Shown: positions 17,480-62,300 of the stretch, one piece after another
Layout: every line of letters starts with the position of its first letter
Position numbering within the stretch: position 1 is the first letter of the stretch
NCBI GenBank assembly: GCA_037976565.1
Contig: CP137668.1
Location: 26,537,906 to 26,601,905 of the forward strand
From: Mesocentrotus franciscanus
Lineage: Eukaryota > Echinodermata > Echinoidea > Camarodonta > Strongylocentrotidae
DNA length: 64,000 bases
Direction of reading: 5' to 3'
The notes under the pieces: generated by a model
Database searches by the model: none
What the model saw: the letters and a program-made list of their open reading frames with translations, nothing else
What the model was told of the DNA's origin: nothing
Program-made: the position numbers and the translations under genes

Positions 17480-18790
17480 TCAAAGTACTAGGTGCCGAGA
17501 TATAGTCTTGAATGGCAATCCAAAATCGTACCAACGTGCCAACGTGCGTGCCAACGTACGTGCCGACATAAGTTGAGAGTCGGGACTTGAATTTAATTCT
17601 CCAACGTGCCAACGTGCCAACAATCCAACATAAGTTGAGAGACAGGACTTGAATTTAAGTCGGCAACGCGCCAACGTGCCAACATATAGTTGAGAGACTT
17701 GAATTTAATTCTCCAACGTGCCAACGTGCCATCGAGCCAACATAAGTTGAGAGACTTGAATTTAATTCTCCAACGTGCCAACGTTCCAACGCGCCAACAT
17801 AAGTTGAGAGACTTGAATTTAATTCTCCAACGTGCCAACGTTCCAACGCGCCAACATAAGTTGAGAGACTTGAATTTAATTCTCCAACGTGCCAACGTTC
17901 CAACGAGCCAACATAAGTTGAGAGACTTGAATTTAATTCTCCAACGTGCCAACGAGCCAACATAAGTTGAGAGACTTGAATTTAATTCTCCAACGTGCCA
18001 ACGAGCCAACATAAGTTGAGAGACTTGAATTTAATTCTCCAACGTGCAAACGAGCCAACATAAGTTGAGAGACTTGAATTTAATGCTCCAACGTGCCAAC
18101 GTTCAACGAGCCAATATAGTTGAGAGACTTGAATTTAATTCTTCAACGTGCCAACGTTCCAACGAACCAACATAAGTTGAGAGAGTTGATTTTAAATCGC
18201 CAACGTGCCAACGAGCCAACATAAGTTGAGAGACTTGAATTTAATTCTCCAACGTGCCAACGTTACAACGAACCAACATAAGTTGAGAGACTTGATTTTA
18301 AATCGCCAACGTGTCAACGCGCGTAACGTAAGTTTAGAGACTTGGATTTAAGTTGCCATCGTGTCAACGCGCCAACGTGCCAACGAGCCGACATTAGTTG
18401 AGACATTTGAATTTAAATCGCCAACGTGCCAAAGTGCCAACGAGCCAACATTAGTTGAGAGACTTGAATTTAAATCGCCAACGTGACAACGCGCCAACGT
18501 GACAACGCAACGCCAACGAGCCGACATAAGTTGAGAGACTTGAATTTAAATCGCCAACGTGCCAACGTCTGACGTTGCCAACGAGCCAACATTAGTTGAG
18601 AGACTTGAATTTAAATCGCCAACGTGCCAACGAGCCAACATAAGTTGAGAAACTTGAATTTAAATCGCCAACGTGCCAACGTTTCAACGAGCCGACATAA
18701 GTTGAGAGACTTGAATTTAAATCGCCAACCTGCCAACGAGACATTAGTTGAGAGACTTGAATTTGAATCGCCAACGTGCGGACGTGCCAA
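17480..18790. repeat. Minisatellite of ~48-60-bp units (CCAACGTGCCAACG / TTGAGAGACTTGAATTTAA)
   Basis: About 22 units. Each pairs a variable number of CCAACGTG / CCAACGAG decamers with a constant CATAAGTTGAGAGACTTGAA segment and a TTTAATTCTC or TTTAAATCGC spacer. Units before about 18,180 mostly have TTAATTCTC and later ones TTTAAATCGC, so two subfamilies lie in blocks. Long minus-strand frames (for example MLARWHVGELNSS repeats) exist because many units are near multiples of three. They have no upstream signals or conserved fold and are not called as genes. Confidence 0.95.
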
Positions 18791-20343
18791 CCTTTTTTTT
18801 TTATTATTGAAGATAACACTATCTTTGTATAAGCTCTCTTATGTTACGCTATAGCAATTACACAAAAAAAGAATTACAATTTTAAGGTGCTATATACATG
18901 TATACTGAATATCTAAGTACACAATTTGCTTTAAATCCTTGATAATAAAAAGAACAGTTTATTTTCTGATTGTTATCAATTACTAATCCATTTTATTATT
19001 TTATGTTTGGAAATAATTATATAATCAGCTTTCACTATTTTTGAGCCATGAGGTATTGAAAAGTTAAGCACACTTCCTGGTATTTTCTCTCAATACACAT
19101 CTCGCACCTCTTTTTAATATCAATATCAACTTAGAATGCTCTATCCATGTGTCCTTGTGCACTAGCAATATTATTGATCAATAACCTTTACTCCCTTATA
19201 ATTATAAAGACCACGAAATAGAATTTTACCTAACGCTCTATACTGACTACTTCCGACATTCGCCGTTTTAAGATGAGCCACGCCAGGCTTATTACATACA
19301 TTTATAGCATTTTTTGTCGGTTATACTTGACTTACTTCTCTTTATTATTTTATGTCCTTGTAATTTCCTCCGAAAAATGACAAACAATGTTACATTTGTT
19401 ATTTAACTTTATGCCCGTTTTAATTATTATTACGCCTTATTATGTTATTATTTTGTCACTGTCTTTAATTATTATTAGTTATGTTATTGTTTGTACGTAC
19501 TCCTGGTAGTATTATAAATAAAAGGGGTAATTACCGCTAGGTGAAAGGGCATAATAACGATGAGAAGGGGGTAACTGTGTGTGTGAGTATTAAGGGAGTA
19601 ATTTCGCTCTTAAATACGCCCCTGATTGCCGATGAAAAAGGATATTATTAAGTAGAATATATTGCTATTTATTATAAAGGAAAAGGTAGAGATAAAGGAA
19701 AAAGTGGATTTTTCTATTTCTATTTGAAACTGCAACTATCACATTTTAATTTAGGGTATCATCACATGACAAAGGAAAAGGGCATTTATCAAATTAAATA
19801 TATATATATATGTATTAATTGCAGTAAAACAATTATTTTCGTACGTATAATTAGTCATTTTGGAAAAAAAACTTTAAAAAGTAGACGTGCGGGACTTTGT
19901 GCCCCCCTTGCCCACATACAAACAACCATCACACATAATTATGTTCATAATTTTTATAAACGTTATAATTCTAAATGAAAGTTTCGCTTGTACCAGTTAA
20001 ATATTCTTCTAATAGTAAAATATCCTAAGCACTAATCGAAACTGTTTTGTACACAACCAAATGTAAAACATTTTGTTAACCACCTTAAAGTCGATATTCA
20101 TCCTTATATTCATTTCATATACAATCATATGAACGAATTATCTCATAACTGCTCTCCTCATTTGGTAAGTGGGTTATTTACATAATATGTTTGCATTTTC
20201 TTGGTTATTTATTTTGGTTTACAAAATATTAATCTGTTGATTATGCTCGAGTGCAAGCTTGACTGCTTATAATGAGTGATAAGTTATACTTATAGTGATA
20301 TTAAAACAAGCTAGGCATTTCCAGAATCTGTAGTAGTAGTACT
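18791..20343. other. AT-rich intergenic sequence, no gene seen
   Basis: Mostly A/T-rich with short homopolymers and an ATATAT run near 19,800. The 84-codon frame at 19,724-19,978 has no recognisable feature. Confidence 0.4.
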
Positions 20344-21027: not shown

Positions 21028-22318
21028 GTCCTACGTTACCCTAGGACACGGGTCCCTGTTACCCTAGGACACCGAGTCCCGTCACCCTAGGACACCGGGC
21101 CCGCGTCACCCTAGGACACCGGAGTTTGCGTTACCCTAACCTAACCCTTACCCTATGACACCGAGTCCGCGTCACCCTAGGACACGGGTCCCGCACCCTA
21201 GGACACCAGGTCCGCGTCACCCTAGGACACCGGAGTTTGCGTTATCTTAACTCTAACCCTAACCCTAACCCTAGGACACCGGGTCGCGCGTCACCCTAGG
21301 ACAACAGAGTTTGCGTTACCCTAACTCTAACCCTAACCCTAGGACACCGGGTCGCGCATCACCCTAGGACACCGAGTCCCGCGTCACCCTAGGACACCGA
21401 GTCCGCGTCACCCTAGGACACGGGTCCGCTTCACCCTAGGACACCGAGTCCGCGTCACCCTAGGACACCGAGTCGCGTCACCCTATGACACCGAGTCCGC
21501 GTCACCCTAGGACACCGGTCCCGTCACCCTAGGACACCGGAGTTTGCGTTACCTAACTCTAACCCTAACCTAACCCTAGGACACCGGGTCGCGCTTCACC
21601 CTAGGACACCGGAGTTTGCGTTACCCTAACCTAACCCTTACCCTATGACACCGAGTCCCGTGTCACCCTAGGACACCAGGTCCCGCGTCACCCTAGGACA
21701 CCGGAGTTTGCGTTACCTAACTCTAACCTAACCCTAACCCTAGGACACCTGGTCCCGCATCACCCTAGGACACCGAGTCCCGCGTCACCCTAGGACACTG
21801 AGTCCCACGTCACCCTAGGACACCGGGTCCCGCTTCACCCTAGGACACCGAGTCCCGCGTCACCCTAGGACACCGAGTCCCGCGTCACCCTAGGACACTG
21901 AGTCCTGCGTCACCCTAGGACACCGGGTCGCGCTTCACCGTAGGACACCGGAGTTTGCGTTACCCTAACCCTAACCCTTACCCTATGATACCGAGTCCCG
22001 CCACCCTAGGACACCGGGTCCCGTCACCCTAGGACACCGGAGTTTGCGTTACCCTAACTCTAACCCTAACCTAACCCTAGGACACCGGGTCGCGCTTCAC
22101 CCTAGGACACCGGAGTTTGCGTTACCCTAACCCTAACCCTTACCCTATGACACCGAGTCCCACGTCACCCTAGGACACCGGAGTTTGCGTTACCCTAACT
22201 CTAACCCTAACCCTAGGACACCAGGTCCCGCGTCACCCTAGGACACCGGAGTTTGCGTTATCTTAACTCTAACCCTAACCCTAACCCTAGGACACCGGGT
22301 CGCGCGTCACCCTAGGAT
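21028..22318. repeat. GC-rich satellite carrying interspersed telomere-type CCCTAA motifs
   Basis: Basic unit of about 25 bp: CACCCTAGGACACCG followed by a variable GGTCCCGCGT. Longer units replace the variable part with GGAGTTTGCGTTACCCTAAC and then two to four CCCTAA repeats before the next CCTAGGACACC. The C-rich telomere strand is on the + strand throughout, so the array is head to tail. About 45-50 CCTAGGACACC cores are present. Composition contrasts sharply with the AT-rich flanks. Confidence 0.95.
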
Positions 22319-27294: not shown

Positions 27295-27486
27295 GAGGAG
27301 GAGGAGGAGGAGGAGGAGGAGGAGGAGGAGGAGGAGGAGGAGGAGGAGGAGGAGGAGGAGGAGGAGGAGGAGGAGGAGGAGGAGGAGGAGGAGGAGGAGG
27401 AGGAGGAGGAGGAGGAGGAGGAGGAGGAGGAGGAGGAGGAGGAGGAGGAGGAGGAGGAGGAGGAGGAGGAGGAGGAGGAGGAGGAG
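27295..27486. repeat. Pure (GAG)64 microsatellite
   Basis: 192 bp of uninterrupted GAG triplets, followed to about 27,543 by decayed GGA/GAA purines. The + strand is all purine. The poly-Gly frame across it is an artefact. Confidence 0.98.
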
Positions 27487-53300: not shown

Positions 53301-56300
53301 TTAGGATCTTGATTAATGTTTAATAAGGATTCTTAATCTTACCCAAGTGGTGCAACCGAGACTATGATTTTCCAATTGAGGCAATGAATGACTTGGTCAT
53401 ATATCACAGGATGAAGATATCTAATAACCTATCAAACCTCATTTTTAGATATCACAGCCCAATGCTTAGATCCCTAACTATGACTTCAGATTATTTTGAT
53501 ATATTTCAGGGACTCCCAATCTTACCCCAAGTGGTGCATCGATGATGGCGATGAGGAAGGGGTCGAGCAGGGTCATGATGGCGAAGACGATGACAAACTT
53601 GCAGAAGAGGTCCGGGAAGTTTCCGACCACCTTCTGGAAGAGCCAGCAGATGAAGACGAGGAGGGACAGAAACAGGACGTTGGTCAGCGGTCCTAGGATG
53701 ACCACTGCCACCTCTTCCTTGGTCTGCAGGAGAGAGGCCTGATAGTTGAGACTGACCGTGTAAGGCAGGAACTGGAATCTGAGTATCACACAGAGAATGT
53801 AATAGCAGCATTAATTGCATAATCAAAATAGTAATTGGTACTAATTGCTCATAGTTAAACAGAGATATATCACAATATAGAATACGTGGCCCAGCACAAT
53901 GGATTTACCAAAGCAGGGCATAACATATAGACATAAAAAATACAGTTGTACAGATATGATACATACATGTAGTTCAATGAGATACTATAAATGAGGTAGT
54001 TTAACATTTCAGAGATATTAATTAAATGGAAATAAATTATATATAAGTGTTGTTTTTATCATATGACAATGATGCGTAAGTAATGTGGAGTATATTGATA
54101 ATTATAATAACCATAATTTACATATCTCTTTTCAATACCATATTATGTACATGCAGCTGGTATCATGTGCTTAGCAAATGCAATGCATCAAAACTTATAA
54201 TTAAACTATCATTTACAGCATCATTCTTTTCCTGTTCATTACTGATCAATGCACTTTGCACGCATTTCATAACATGCTTGGTAAGAAAATTACCTAGACA
54301 TAATTAACAAAATAATACTAATACTAAGAATTCAATCTGAGCTCCAACAAGGACAAAATGTATTAACTGTTGCATTTCACATTTCATCTAGACATTTGTT
54401 TAGAAGTGGGCTTGAACATTTATGGCATAATGGGTTGCTGAAATTAAAATAAGGCGATAAGGCATGCTCTCCCTTGCTTTCTGTATTTTTTCCTCTCTTG
54501 ATTGCTTAAATTTGAAATTTGAAAATGCTACTTAAGAACTGATATCATTATAATTGACTTACAGTTAACAGCTAAATTATTCATACCCTTACCAAGTTTT
54601 GTAATTTTTTTCAGTATGTGAAAAATTGATTTGTCCCGATTTATGTTTCTTGAGAATGTGACATATTAAAGCTTACATCTAAAAGTATTCAACAAAGGCC
54701 TTCATTCAACCAGTCCACCTTTCATTCTTGTGTTACGTAAAAACAAGACATCAAATTTATAAAGAATATAATTTAGTTGTTACCTGTATTTTCTTAGCAT
54801 GATAGATTTATCAGGGACATCCCTGAAAGTTGATTTATCTTTTAAAGACAGTATTTTTAGTGGAGAGGGAACTCACGTGCTGATGGGGACCGCAATGATG
54901 TTGAGGAAGGCCCACTGGCCTAGGTAATGGAGGTACATTCTGACGAAGAAGATGACACAGAGGAGGAGGATCAGGGTCCAAAACTCCCTGGACCTCCACT
55001 GGGACAGACCCAGCTCCGCAAAGAGCTGACGACTGATGTACTGCACCTTCTCGTGGCCCTGACGAGCCGTGTGACCCTTCGTAGAGAACGGTTTTCTAAA
55101 GAAAGAAAATCCAAGATAATGCAGTCAGAAGGCAACGATACATGGAAGTATACATGTATATATGGTGAGAGCGATAAAAGTAATAGCCATCGTATCTTCC
55201 TCTGTACTTTCACAAACTTTTCCACAGCCTATATTGTAGTAGAGCTGTCAGTATCTGTCAATATTTCTGATCTCTTTTGAAGAAAATAGATTAATCAATA
55301 ATAAGTTACAATAACTGATGTAATTGACTGATATCATTCATTGGTTGAGAGCAGATTTGTCATAGAAATATGGAAGGAGTTATGAAACAGGACCCTGCAT
55401 ACTGTTTTTGCATAAGTGTTTACTATAGCTTTGTTAACCTTTACTGAACCTGAGCACATCATGAGTTTTCAGCCTCATACCTTGAAAATCTCTTGATACC
55501 ACATGCAAGGGGGAGAAAAAAAACCACAGTACAGATTTTAGCCACTGTGCACCTATTGAAGTTGGTTAACCACAATAGGTACAAACAGACACCTATTATT
55601 CAAAAGCCTAAAATCGCCACTGCATATAAAACCATTATACTTGTAAATGCATTGCAAGTTTGGTAAAATGGACTCCTATGTGTGTTGACAAATTTGTGAG
55701 TTAATACACAATACTGAAATATGACATTACCCTACATGTCATTGCATTGCATTGCGCCGCAGCACTTTGTAGAGGTTTAATACCGCATCATGAGGATGAA
55801 AACCTAAATAGGGTTAGAGGAGAGGTAGAAGACTTACTGCACAGCACAGCCATGAGTGGCTAGCTCCTCGAGGTGGGTGAGCTTCTTGCGTTTCTTGCGC
55901 TGGTTGAGCAGAGTTGTCTTAGGGATCATGGTGTACATGCGGCGGATGTAGTCGGTCTGTGGCGGGTTCAGATGTTGCTGTGTAGGTAGAATATACATGT
56001 TATTGCAATTTTAAACATCAGTAATTATGCTATTTCATATATACATACATGTATATTCATATGGTGATGAACACAATGTCTACAAATTAATAGAGGTAAA
56101 TAGCACAAATGCAGGAGAAAGATATGGAAAGAGAAAAAAAAACATGAATAGACAGGGTAAGATATATGAAGAGCAAGGGAAAGAAAGATAAGAAAGAGAG
56201 AGGGGAGAGAGAGAGGGAGGGAGGGAGGAAAAAAAAAGGGGGGGGGGTAATACATGGGAGAAACACTATTTATTTTTTATTTGATAGCTCCACAAGGTTC

Positions 56301-59300
56301 TCAAACTGCCCTGATTAAAATCATTGACAACAAAAAACCCATAGAAATTGCAGAAAGAAAAAAAATCACACCTTTTCAAGGAAGTGGCTAACTCACATTT
56401 CCCTGCTTTTACCGTAGCCAATCTCAAAAAGAGCTCTCTTGGGTACAAACGGAATTTCCACACCATCTCTATGATCAAACACAAACTAAATATCAATTAA
56501 CAAACCTTGTAGAAGAGTCCAGGCTCTCCCTTCACCGCCCGGAACCCATCTTCCTTCTTCTTGATGTACTCTTCGTCATCTTCATCGGACTCGGAGTCCG
56601 TGTCGAGGTACGCCTTCTGGTACTTGCCCAGGAGCTTCCTAGATCCAACGGTGGTGGGAGGTGGCTCCTCATCCTTTTGCTTGGTGCCACGGAAACGGAC
56701 GCCCTCCGATGATTCCAGGGTCTTGGTGGAGGCCTCACTCTCCTAAAATGGGAGAGAGATTGATGATGATGAGGTCAATGGTTCATACATGGTGGAATTG
56801 TTGAGAATGGTAAGAGAGATAATGTTGAGAATTGCAGAGAGGTTGCAAGTCATTTGAATCCTTGATCATAAATGAGATAGGGGATCAATCATCTTAAAAA
56901 TCAAATCTTTGACTGGGTACCATTTTTGAAAGGATATGTGTAAATGGCAGTCTCAGATTTAAAGAATCATAATTTGTTTCACCCGCATTCGTAAAAAACC
57001 TAGTAACTTAACATTTAAACACTGTCAAAATCTTTCACATTCCCTTCACTGCTGGTAAGACCAGCTTTGAAACAACCAGAACCGGCAATGCTATCTTCTC
57101 TTCCCTACCCTTACCCACCCCTGTAACACCTGCCCAATCCCTTTCAGTAATATCATTTTTTCCTGGAAGGACCTCTTCCTTACCAGTTTGATGCCGTCAT
57201 TATTTTTCATACTCCCCTCACTGCTAGTGAGGCCATCCTTGATACTCCCTGAACCACTTATACCACATGCTCTTGGAAATGACTCCTCTACCCCCCTTAC
57301 CCACACCTTTAACACCTACCCAACCCCTTTAAGTATTACTATTTTATTTCTCTGGATCTGCCTTCTCCTTACCAGTTTAATGCTGTCATTATCTTTCATA
57401 CTCCCATCAGCAGTGCTAGTGAGGCCATCCTTGATACTACCAGAACCACTAATGCCACATGCTCTTGGAAATGACTCCTCTACCCCCCTTACCCACACCT
57501 TTAACACCTACCCAACCCCTTTAAGTATTACTATTTTATTTCTCTGGATCTGCCTCCTCCTTACCAGTTTAATTCTGTCATTATCTTTCATACTCCCATC
57601 AGCAGTGCTAGTGAGGCCATCCTTGATACTACCAGAACCACTAATGTCCCATGCTCTTGGAAATGACTCCTCTACCTTACCCACACCTTTAAACCACCTC
57701 AATTTAAGTATTACTATTTTGTTTCTCTGGATCTGCCTTCTCCTTACCAGTTTAATGCTGTCATTATCTTTCATACTCCCATCACTGCTAGTGAGGCCAG
57801 CCTTGATACTACCAGAACCACAATGCAGCTCTTCTGACTCCTCTACCCTTACCCACCCCTTTAACACCTGCCCAATCCTTTAAGTGGATACCTCCTCCTT
57901 ACCAGTTTAATTCTGTCATTATCTTTCATACTCCCATCAGTGCTAGTGAGGCCATCCTTGATACTACCAGAACCACTAATGCCACATGCTCTTGGAAATG
58001 ACTCCTCTACCCCCCTTACCCACACCTTTAACACCTACCCAACCCCTTTAAGTATTACTATTTTATTTCTCTGGATCTGCCTCCTCCTTACCAGTTTAAT
58101 TCTGTCATTATCTTTCATACTCCCATCAGCAGTGCTAGTGAGGCCATCCTTGATACTACCAGAACCACTAATGCCACATGCTCTTGGAAAGGACTCCTCT
58201 ACCCCCTATCCACACCTTTAACACCTACCCAACCCCTTTAAGTATTACTATTTTATTTCTCTGGATCTGCCTCCTCCTTACCAGTTTAATTCTGTCATTA
58301 TCTTTCATACTCCCCTCAGTGCTAGTGAGGCCATCCTTGATACTACCATAACCACTAATGTCCCATGCTCTTGGAAATGACTCCTCTACCCCCTCCCCCT
58401 TACCCACCCCTTTAAACCCTTCCTCAACAACTTTTGGTATTACTATTTTGTTTCTCTGGATCTGCCTCCTCCTTACCAGTTTAAGGCTGTCGTTATCTTT
58501 CATACTCCCCTCACTGCTAGTGAGGCCCGCCTTGATACTCCCTGAACCAACGCTGCTGCTACCTTCTCTCAGAGTTGACGGCTCTCCTTCCTCACTGCCC
58601 AGACCAAAGCTGACCTTTGACCCCTTCACGTCGGCAGCTGATTGGTTATCACCTGGAATACATGAACAGATAGAATGATTACAAAACTGAATGAGGATTA
58701 TAAGTGCTCATAGGCTTACTAAAATGTTCTCATTATTCTCATTAATTACCAAAACTTTGAATGCATATGAAAGTTTTGATAAAAAACAGTCATAAAAGCA
58801 AAATGGAAGATTACAACTCTAATGGTTTCATGATTGTGTGACAGCATTGATCCCAAACAGAACATGATCTCTCTCAATCTTGAAACTCCAACTTCAAACA
58901 CTTTCCCCCAATTATTGTTTTGGGCCAATATTAGGTCTAAAACCATATTTAGTTTAAAACATTGAGTGAGTGTTAAAAAAAAAAAAACTCCATACAAATA
59001 ACTGGAATGTTAGGATATGTATCCATTGGAGTGGGCTTATGTTACCATTGGTTGAAGCCATGTCGACCTTCGATCCAGGAATGGGTTCTTCTCCATCAAT
59101 CGCTTCTTCAGCTCCCTTGATTCTATCGGGATAACCGATCAGGTTGGAGGAGAACTGCAGCTCGACCTCGTATTCCTTCTGACCAGCCAGGTACCTGTAA
59201 AATCAAAGGTCAAATCAATTATCTACTAGTAGTAGGTGGGTATTCAAATGAGTGATGATATATATAGTGTAATATATTCATCAATAGCAAGACATGTCAT

Positions 59301-62300
59301 CTTGCTGTTCATGATCTGCAGTATCTATAGATATCAGATAATTGTAATAGTCTTTACATCAATTTGTCTGCATGAGACAGGAGGAAACTAGAAGCTGTTC
59401 ACAATTACAAACCAGGGAGGTTGTTTCACAAAGACTAAGATCGACGTTTAGTTGAACTTCACTATGGCAGGCCGTTCATGCCACTGTTTGCTCTCACCAT
59501 TATGATCTTTAGATATTTTTTTCCTTCAACAATGAATTATCAAAAAATGTAAATTCTGTAGATTTGTGACCACGATTTGTACGTCCCTTGAGAAACCAAT
59601 GCCATAAATGGTTAGAGGAACTAGTGGCATGAACGGTCTGCCATAGTTAAGTCCAACTTAAAGTCGATCTTAGTCTTTGTGAAACACCCCCCAGGATTAT
59701 AAGTGATATTACCATGAATCATTACACAAAAGTAACTTGTAAAATTAAAAGTAATCTTCATCATCATCATTATTACCTCCTAAACATCAATGTCCTCACC
59801 ATCACCCTCATCCTCCTCCTCTTCCTCCTCAGCATCACCATTACCTCATCATCAATGTCATTATCATCATCTTCATCACTATCCTCCTCCTCCTTCTCCT
59901 TCTCCTCCTCATCATCATTATCACATCAGACTTACCTTGGTAATCTGACAATCTCAAAGTAGATATTACAAAGCCAGTGATCGAGATCAGAAGCCATCAG
60001 TTTCTCAACCGTCTCATGACGATCGATCCGGGTATCAATCTCTCCTCTCAGCATGGGAGTTATATACCTTCAAAAAACAAAAATAAGGAGCAATGTTTAA
60101 AAAAACTCTTTCTGATTTGAAATTCCTGCATAAGTTTAGTGAATACATCATTCACCAAGTCTTTTATATATATTTGTTTAAAGGATTATCATAAATATTC
60201 TTAAAATGCACTGAAGCTGAACATTTGATTGTTTGGGATAACTATAGGGTAAATTTGTGTCTGTAGCATATCAAATGCCAATGGTTAATACCTGATATAA
60301 AATGCACTGGTAATTCTGTCATTTACTTTCATTGACAGAAAAAGGAATGTTTAACATGTCAAAGGTGCGGATACTAAATTTAAAGTACCCTTTGAGTAGT
60401 TTTTAAAAAAAGGGGGTGAAACATTGCAATTCCTAGGCGATATATAAAGTGGAAAAAACTTTTCAAGATCACTTTTCCCTTGCTACTGATCAACTTACTT
60501 TCCCTGAAGGACCTCAAACTGACCATCACAGATGGGGAAGACGCCCCAGGCAACCACCTTATCGACTGGCAGGAGGGTACCACGAAGCAGAAAGAGCTCA
60601 AAGACCAGGACCATACCAGGACGGATGTCGGGTTTGGATGGACAAACGGTGAACTGGCTCTGATCAATCTGTGTGCCGTAAAGAGAGCAGGGAACAGTCT
60701 GGCTTTAATAAATTTGTCTTGAAGTATGATTGAATGTAAGCAAAAGCTATTACACAAATTCCATCTAAAATGATTATGAATGTTAAAGATTACCAAGATA
60801 TAAACCAAGAGTTCAAAGTCTGTAAAGTTTCCACAAAAGAGGAAACAAATGTAAGGAATACTTTAATATGACTGATAAATGCAAATCAAAAGTAAATATC
60901 ACAACATACATTGTATACTATTTTACCTTACTGTACTCCATATCTTTACATTTTTGCCAAATGCATTGACTATATAATAATGTGTGCAATTTTTGTTTTC
61001 TTCTTTTAGTCTCCTAATCATAATCTGTACATTGTAAAAGTGTCCATCATGATTGAGGGGAAGTATACATCTAGCCCACTCCTTCAAAATTCAAGTACAC
61101 AACCAATAAGATCAGCTCCTCCAGCCCCCCTCTCGCCTCTCTCCCTTGTATATCTCCTCACTGTAATCTCTACATTGTAGAAATGCCCATCATGGTTGAG
61201 GGGCAGTGTAGACCCAGCCCACTCCTGACCGCGTAGGTTTGACCAGCGCAAGACATGTCCACCCAGACGGTCATACAAGGATGTCATCAAGATGAACCGT
61301 CCAGCTGAGAACAAGAATAAGAAGGAAATCAAGTCAACTAAAACCTAAAGAAAATATTAATCATAAGTAACCATAACCAAAGTAGCAATCATAGGTGGGT
61401 AATTTCATTACAAATATAGTCCTAGAAATCGGGATGGAATGACCTATGAGATAGAAAAACATCACTAAAGTATTACTAACATTATCCACACTTTAAAGGG
61501 GACATCCACACTGGCATCAAATTGATTTTAATATACATAAAAATGAGGAAATTACATTGGTGAAGTTTGATAATAAAAAGTAAAGAGGCTACAAAGATGC
61601 AAAGTTGCGATCTATTAAAAAAACAAAAACAAAAAAAAACAAAACAGCGACTCTATGATTTTCCGTTATGAGTGCTTTCAGTTGTTTGTGGAGAAAAAAC
61701 AAAAATCCTATTTATCCCCTAAAATATATTTTTTGGTTTGATATGCTTGTTCTCTAACCAGGTAGCTTATCCTTGACTCCTCTGAGACACTTGAGCTTGA
61801 TCTGTATCGGTTGTGGAGCTCGATTCCAGTCGACCTTCCAACGACGACCCTTTGACCCGCCATACTGGCCATCAGCCATCATCAAGTCACCGTACATAGT
61901 CTAAAAAACCAGGGAGTAATCAAATTTTAAAAAAATCTGCTGTCAGAACAATAGTTACAACTGAAAGAAATACTACATAAGCTGGACAACTAAATAATCA
62001 TCACCAACATCAACTGTAGGACTTGAATGTCCAAATGTTTTTTAAAGCAAAATGGTGCTTAGATTCTTTCTATTTGTAATATAGAGATGTTTATCTCACT
62101 TAAATAGAAGTTGAGTAATAGTGCAAACAAAATGACTCTCAATGGGTTGTTGTAACTCTTTTACAAAGGGACTCCAGAAGTATCCAAACAACAGCATCAT
62201 CATCAATACAAACAATAAAACCAATAATACCAACATAAAACCATCTTCAAAACAATCACCACCACCATGGATGTGATCATTGTGTGATCATCAAAATCAT

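Follow-up and report, generated by a model that had tools for sequence, protein, structure and literature searches.

The window analysed here, a stretch of 64,000 nucleotides from the sea urchin Mesocentrotus franciscanus, bears on its minus strand a gene that, judged by protein comparison, is the sea urchin orthologue of OFCC1. Among the 120 matches listed out of 170 related proteins found, S. purpuratus LOC582863 and L. variegatus LOC121415911 are 83% and 80% identical to the gene product over the whole query, a Diadema setosum protein is 71% identical, and the vertebrate matches are named orofacial cleft 1 candidate gene 1 (OFCC1). The host gene is described as OFCC1/MRDS1/Opo in PMC3248446. 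With the S. purpuratus protein as tblastn query, nearly all of residues 53-1282 are matched co-linearly over about 18 kb, by exons that run from about 68,316 down to 49,968. Two neighbouring exons, B and C, flank the intron of interest (Table 1). In the database proteins of S. purpuratus and L. variegatus the exon B product is joined directly to the exon C product, with a single copy of the terminal peptide, and the join reads ...DNDSLKL or ...DNDSMKL, then ESEASTKT; at this junction the Diadema protein carries related sequence of similar length. The peptide of exons A, B and C has no match in Pfam or in the PDB, and the exon at 53,481-53,810 has none in the PDB.

Table 1. Exons, array units and the second boundary duplication, all on the minus strand; a slash marks a splice junction.
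Feature	Position	Strand	Length	First intron base at donor	Intron-like half (nt)	Description
OFCC1 exon B	58,477-58,652	-	176 nt	58,476		tblastn residues 652-709, 96.6% identity to S. purpuratus; splice sites from sequence: acceptor CCAG/GTGATAACC, donor CTG/GTAAGG
OFCC1 exon C (next exon)	56,506-56,742	-				tblastn residues 710-789, 93.75% identity; acceptor ...CTCTCTCCCATTTTAG/GAG at 56,742, sole YAG passing the pyrimidine scan over 58,440-56,743
Unit 1	58,354-58,548	-	195 bp	58,476	123	genuine 3' end of the exon with the canonical donor, then the start of the intron; no in-frame stop in the intron half
Unit 2	58,167-58,353	-	187 bp	58,281	115	sole extra donor with in-frame open product; TAG 58,227-58,225; AATAAA 58,257-58,252
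Unit 3	57,975-58,166	-	192 bp	58,091	117	identical to unit 6; AATAAA 58,067-58,062
Unit 4	57,820-57,974	-	155 bp	57,902	83	mosaic
Unit 5	57,640-57,819	-	180 bp	57,747	108	second open junction, into unit 6
Unit 6	57,448-57,639	-	192 bp	57,564	117	AATAAA 57,540-57,535
Unit 7	57,256-57,447	-	192 bp	57,372	117	AATAAA 57,348-57,343
Unit 8	57,084-57,255	-	172 bp	57,183	100	donor within GTAAGGAA
Unit 9	57,083 to about 57,007	-				degenerate; exon-like half with in-frame stop; donor GT lost
Older second copy of an exon 3' end and donor, same gene	61,010-61,083	-				parent 61,226-61,153

At the 3' end of exon B begins an array of nine head-to-tail units, running from 58,548 to about 57,007, which Tandem Repeats Finder returns as two rows (57,108-57,885, period 192, score 1087; 57,891-58,549, period 195, score 1048). 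Units 1-8 are 155-195 bp long and each consist of a 72- or 75-nt copy of the exon 3' end, whose source is the final 72 nt of exon B (58,548-58,477), followed by an 83-123 nt copy of the intron start. A sequence-only reading of this DNA had described a tandem array with units of about 190 bp that repeat the exon end together with the intron start; the array is real, and its coordinates, donor count and unit steps had been given correctly. The estimate of at least eight units stands for those that carry a donor, and a ninth, degenerate unit had been overlooked, whose exon-like half differs from those of units 1-8 at 15-21 of 72 bases (21-29%). The exon-like halves of units 1-8 all retain 24-25 open codons, and the coding-like peptide reported for every copy is indeed kept up to the stop-bearing ninth unit. 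The donor 9-mer CTG/GTAAGG is identical at the border of the exon-like and intron-like halves in eight of eight units. The intact donor that had been claimed for every copy is found, in units 1-8, at the level of the 9-mer; the longer string GTAAGGAG is intact in seven units, unit 8 reading GTAAGGAA. Farther downstream, 7/8 units contain a weaker second donor-like 9-mer, TGG/GTAAGG, and each of the seven leads to a stop when used. Searches of the species' own genome (773 Mb, 21 contigs, very common words skipped, a single candidate region scored each time) returned eight matches to the unit each, all in the array, and a dispersed-repeat or transposon origin was rejected on this result. A structured RNA was likewise set aside, as the array has no match in Rfam and the fold of unit 3 is not better than those of shuffled sequences (z 0.75).

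Minisatellites, or VNTRs, are made of head-to-tail units, with mosaic units and signs of homogenisation. The OFCC1 array resembles them in its head-to-tail units of about 190 bp, within the range of tens to hundreds of base pairs, which are mosaic and recently homogenised; unlike them, it repeats a unit that extends across an exon-intron boundary, and 8/9 copies have a strong donor. Over 192 bp there is no difference between units 3 and 6, in keeping with the recent expansion proposed by the sequence-only reading, and unit 7 differs from them at 4 of 192 positions. Unit 4 shares its exon-like half with units 3 and 6 (0/72 differences), and its tail groups with that of unit 8 (support 0.89). 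In the tree of the exon-like halves unit 1 falls with unit 8 (0.90), in that of the tails with unit 5 (0.90). The trees of the two halves disagree, with supports of about 0.90. Mosaic units and discordant half-trees are the pattern that unequal exchange or gene conversion would be expected to leave, and the similarity of the units supports a recent turnover and expansion of the array. From this turnover pattern, copy-number polymorphism between individuals is likely.

What would the spliceosome make of such an intron? The eight donors proposed for it are all present, with one 9-mer and a single acceptor to be joined to. A simple scan of the intron from 58,440 (YAG after at least 11 pyrimidines of 17, not a trained predictor) found no acceptor within the array and only the known one at 56,742, and cassette exons within the array were rejected on the same scan. 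Donor 1, joined to 56,742, keeps the reading frame as expected. With donor 2 the frame gains 195 nt and 65 residues (VRRRQIQRNKIVIPKVVEEGFKGVGKGEGVEESFPRAWDISGYGSIKDGLTSTEGSMKDNDRIKL) and stays open, and donors 3-8 all run into the in-frame TAG in unit 2. The earlier proposal of a variable number of peptide repeats fails on these frames, because six of the extra donors meet that stop, and the maximum is one extra repeat. The donor-to-donor steps are 195, 190, 189, 155, 183, 192 and 189, and five of the seven are multiples of three, as had been noted. As a sign of coding this periodicity was discarded; it is weak evidence because units 3, 6 and 7 are near-copies and the intron-half lengths depart from the common 117 by 2, 17 and 34 nt. 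There are two open unit junctions, u1-u2 and u5-u6, rather than the single one counted before, and from the exon only u1-u2 is accessible in frame.

The open path through donor 2 raises the question of whether it serves as an alternative 5' splice site. If so, the 65 additional residues would appear in a minor isoform and give the variable linker that precedes the membrane part of the protein another copy of the exon-end peptide. The extension is in frame, lacks a stop and ends at a donor 9-mer identical to the real one, and the intron half of unit 1 has 0 stops where shuffled sequences have a mean of 2.36. However, this absence of stops is not significant (P = 0.068) in a sequence that is purine-rich, and no protein with the peptide was found in a database of 90% clusters, in which isoforms inside clusters are hidden and the species' own annotation may be absent. 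When the array-peptide region was searched there, 1,576 candidates were scored and the S. purpuratus orthologue alone was returned (E = 0.26), at 61% identity over 30% of the region, its motif-bearing stretch being the normal exon only; a 123-aa open reading frame of the array had no match among 86 candidates. The S. purpuratus and L. variegatus OFCC1 proteins, compared at the protein level, lack the array peptide. We regard a functional donor 2 as unlikely. That unit 1 runs on in frame into unit 2, and unit 5 into unit 6, is also what would be expected if the array had once been a coding repeat that later became intronic. Against such an intronisation, the exon junction is the same in S. purpuratus and L. 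variegatus and the peptide occurs once in each, the related stretch of Diadema is of similar length at this place, and most of the other unit tails contain stops; we give this history hardly any credence, the least of all the readings considered.

The donors are not of marginal strength. Scored with a human donor matrix, the canonical 9-mer reaches 5.43, third among the 15 located donors of the gene, and its seven copies are equal to it. Donors of such strength are scarce: 63 9-mers were counted on both strands of 200 kb of sampled genome. Of 48 arrays of period at least 20 in that sample, just one has a donor of this kind, and that one a single copy. Within the window, 16 array rows were recorded, two of which are the donor array itself (four donors each), and one other row has a single donor. 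Multiple donors compete by position. With eight comparable donors for one acceptor, the choice between productive and decoy sites might regulate the gene: use of donors 3-8 would bring in the premature stop and lead to nonsense-mediated decay or truncation, and array length would tune OFCC1 output. It accords with such a role that six of the seven extra donors reach the same premature stop, and PMC5389562 reports that multiple U1 occupancy affects 5' site choice. Yet there is no sign that the donors have been kept by selection, unit 9 having lost its own; substitutions are alike in both halves when units 4 and 8 are left out, and an invariant stretch of 9 nt is, in our judgement, unremarkable among copies so similar. 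Regulation through decoy donors appears very unlikely to us.

A further element of the units is an AATAAA hexamer, placed exactly 24 nt after the donor in four of the eight and followed by what is, by eye, G/U-rich sequence; units 1, 4, 5 and 8 lack it at this distance. Four of the nine AATAAA of the minus strand between 49,968 and 64,000 fall in the array. According to PMC5389562, U1 binding can block polyadenylation up to 1 kb away. Each unit might then be a module of donor and poly(A) signal, in which U1 at the donor restrains polyadenylation at the hexamer and its release yields a shortened OFCC1 that terminates within the array and lacks the membrane part. But the four hexamers go back to a single substitution that the array has multiplied (units 1 and 5 read AAACAAA at this place), and chance is their default explanation; a poly(A) module seems to us barely credible. 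A related proposal, which we hold to be highly improbable, combines the donors, the AATAAA of 4/8 units and the G-runs into a copy-number-variable platform for U1 binding. Were it true, the number of units would set the balance between the full-length membrane OFCC1, the form with 65 additional residues and the truncated membrane-free form.

How, then, could so many strong donors be tolerated in one intron? We propose that the array is probably a young, near-neutral minisatellite, seeded by tandem duplication across the 3' end of the OFCC1 exon. Duplication of the final 72 nt of the exon together with the first roughly 115 nt of the intron would have provided the seed, which would then have grown into an array whose units became partly uniform through unequal exchange or gene conversion. 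All added copies would have come to lie downstream of the real donor, within the intron. With the first donor defining the 176-nt exon, the copies would be spliced out with the intron and evolve close to neutrality. U1 may be expected to sit on several of the donors, and from the literature and the anatomy of the array we infer that the first is the one used. The array would be tolerated because this first donor still defines the exon, and the intact look of the donors and peptides would be owed to the youth of the copies and not to their use; in unit 9, which has diverged most, neither the donor nor the open peptide is left.

Several observations speak against a silent minisatellite and have to be weighed. 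The eight donors, scoring equal to the real one, could well compete. When all eight units are compared, the intron-like half is the more variable (40/75 variable columns against 13/72 in the exon-like half), and the mean pairwise difference is 6.5% for exon-like and 15.4% for intron-like halves, the latter inflated by poorly aligned shortened tails. With units 4 and 8 set aside for their shortened tails, the variable columns are 10/72 in the exon-like and 21/108 in the intron-like half (Fisher P = 0.42), and unit 8 differs from the others by 9-18% in its tail, pairwise realigned, and by 10-11% in its exon-like half. Transcripts that always join 58,477 to 56,742, together with equal decay of the two halves, had been named beforehand as the mark of an inert minisatellite, and this expectation is half borne out: the halves behave alike without units 4 and 8, and the intron-like half looks faster with all eight. 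The exon-like changes among units 1-8 are nine non-synonymous and four synonymous, against an expected 20% of synonymous sites (P = 0.27 for a synonymous excess), and constraint on the peptide copies was rejected on these counts. Unit 9, compared with the inferred ancestor, has eight synonymous and nine non-synonymous changes, and this excess (8/17; P = 0.012, transition bias ignored) also stands against a silent array; we read it as synonymous change that probably accumulated along the constrained branch of the exon itself. Two of the unit tails contain no stop, with shuffle P values of 0.068 and 0.056. The substitutions do not clearly point to selection acting on the copies. Length changes provide the best remaining hint: the exon-like halves contain one in-frame 3-nt indel, and nearly all others lie in the G-rich intron-like tails. 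Constraint could produce such an asymmetry, and so could gene conversion templated by the exon or slippage in the G-runs.

How does the array relate to known systems? Tandem duplication is described as an accepted route to new splice sites in the review PMC3443670. PMC4974935 describes the potato RdRp gene, in which a duplicated piece crosses the intron-exon boundary on the acceptor side and a new intron is made, and fission yeast genes in which a 24-bp exonic AGGT segment is repeated several times in tandem. Intron gain and the OFCC1 array have in common that splice signals are multiplied within a gene, and that the duplicated segment crosses a splice site, here the donor of the exon at 58,652-58,477. 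In intron gain the duplication supplies both donor and acceptor, whereas the simple scan found no acceptor in the array. The potato case copies the acceptor side and creates a new intron; in OFCC1 the donor side is copied, in nine copies, and an existing intron is lengthened. We view the OFCC1 array, unusual but most likely near-neutral, as a donor-side equivalent, expanded to an array, of the boundary-spanning duplications already known. The titles and abstract openings surveyed contained no case of a tandem array with a donor in each unit.

Competition among identical 5' splice sites is usually studied on constructed pre-mRNAs. The duplicated 5' splice-site constructs treated in PMC5389562 and PMC8724738 place identical donors before one acceptor, and their selection rules should apply directly to the array; they are laboratory pre-mRNAs with few sites, whereas the OFCC1 array is natural, genomic and has eight. 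According to PMC5389562, multiple occupancy by U1 affects the choice between alternative 5' sites, and efficiency is kept unless the sites are very close. The value of the OFCC1 array lies in its being a natural donor-competition experiment, in which exon definition, favouring the first donor, is set against closeness to the acceptor, favouring the last. The 9-mer is identical at all eight donors, which leaves position and context as the only differences. If there are individuals that differ in array length, they would form a dose series. The array also illustrates how duplications of exon 3' ends can persist, the extra copies landing in the intron.

The gene contains a second, older duplication of this type (Table 1). 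The copy lies in the intron, 143 bp downstream of its parent, matches it at 60 of 74 bases without gaps and has lost the donor GT. When 35 kb were compared with themselves (on one strand with the dust filter, for matches of at least 40 nt less than 5 kb apart), the array and this pair were the only two local direct duplications in the gene body. A randomly placed unit would span an exon 3' end of the gene with a chance of about 0.21 if 192 bp long and about 0.08 if 74 bp long. That two of two duplications lie at exon 3' ends is suggestive; copies of constrained exons also stay recognisable for longer. The second duplication suggests, as part of the U1-platform proposal, that donor regions may be preferred starting points for copies. 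A third set, at about 79,830-80,210 in window-equivalent coordinates, consists of short tandem duplications upstream of, and outside, the matched OFCC1 exons.

Other repeats in the window are of different kinds. At 21,034-22,317 there is a complex array in which an GGACACCGGGTC unit is mixed with telomere-like CCCTAACCCTAA stretches, at a chromosome arm position. A perfect (GAG)64 run occupies 27,295-27,486, with 100% matches over 192 bp, and may be coding or a replication hotspot. At 17,531-18,791 lies an array whose units, based on CCAACGTGCCAACG, measure 41 to 57 bp and form nested periods of higher order.
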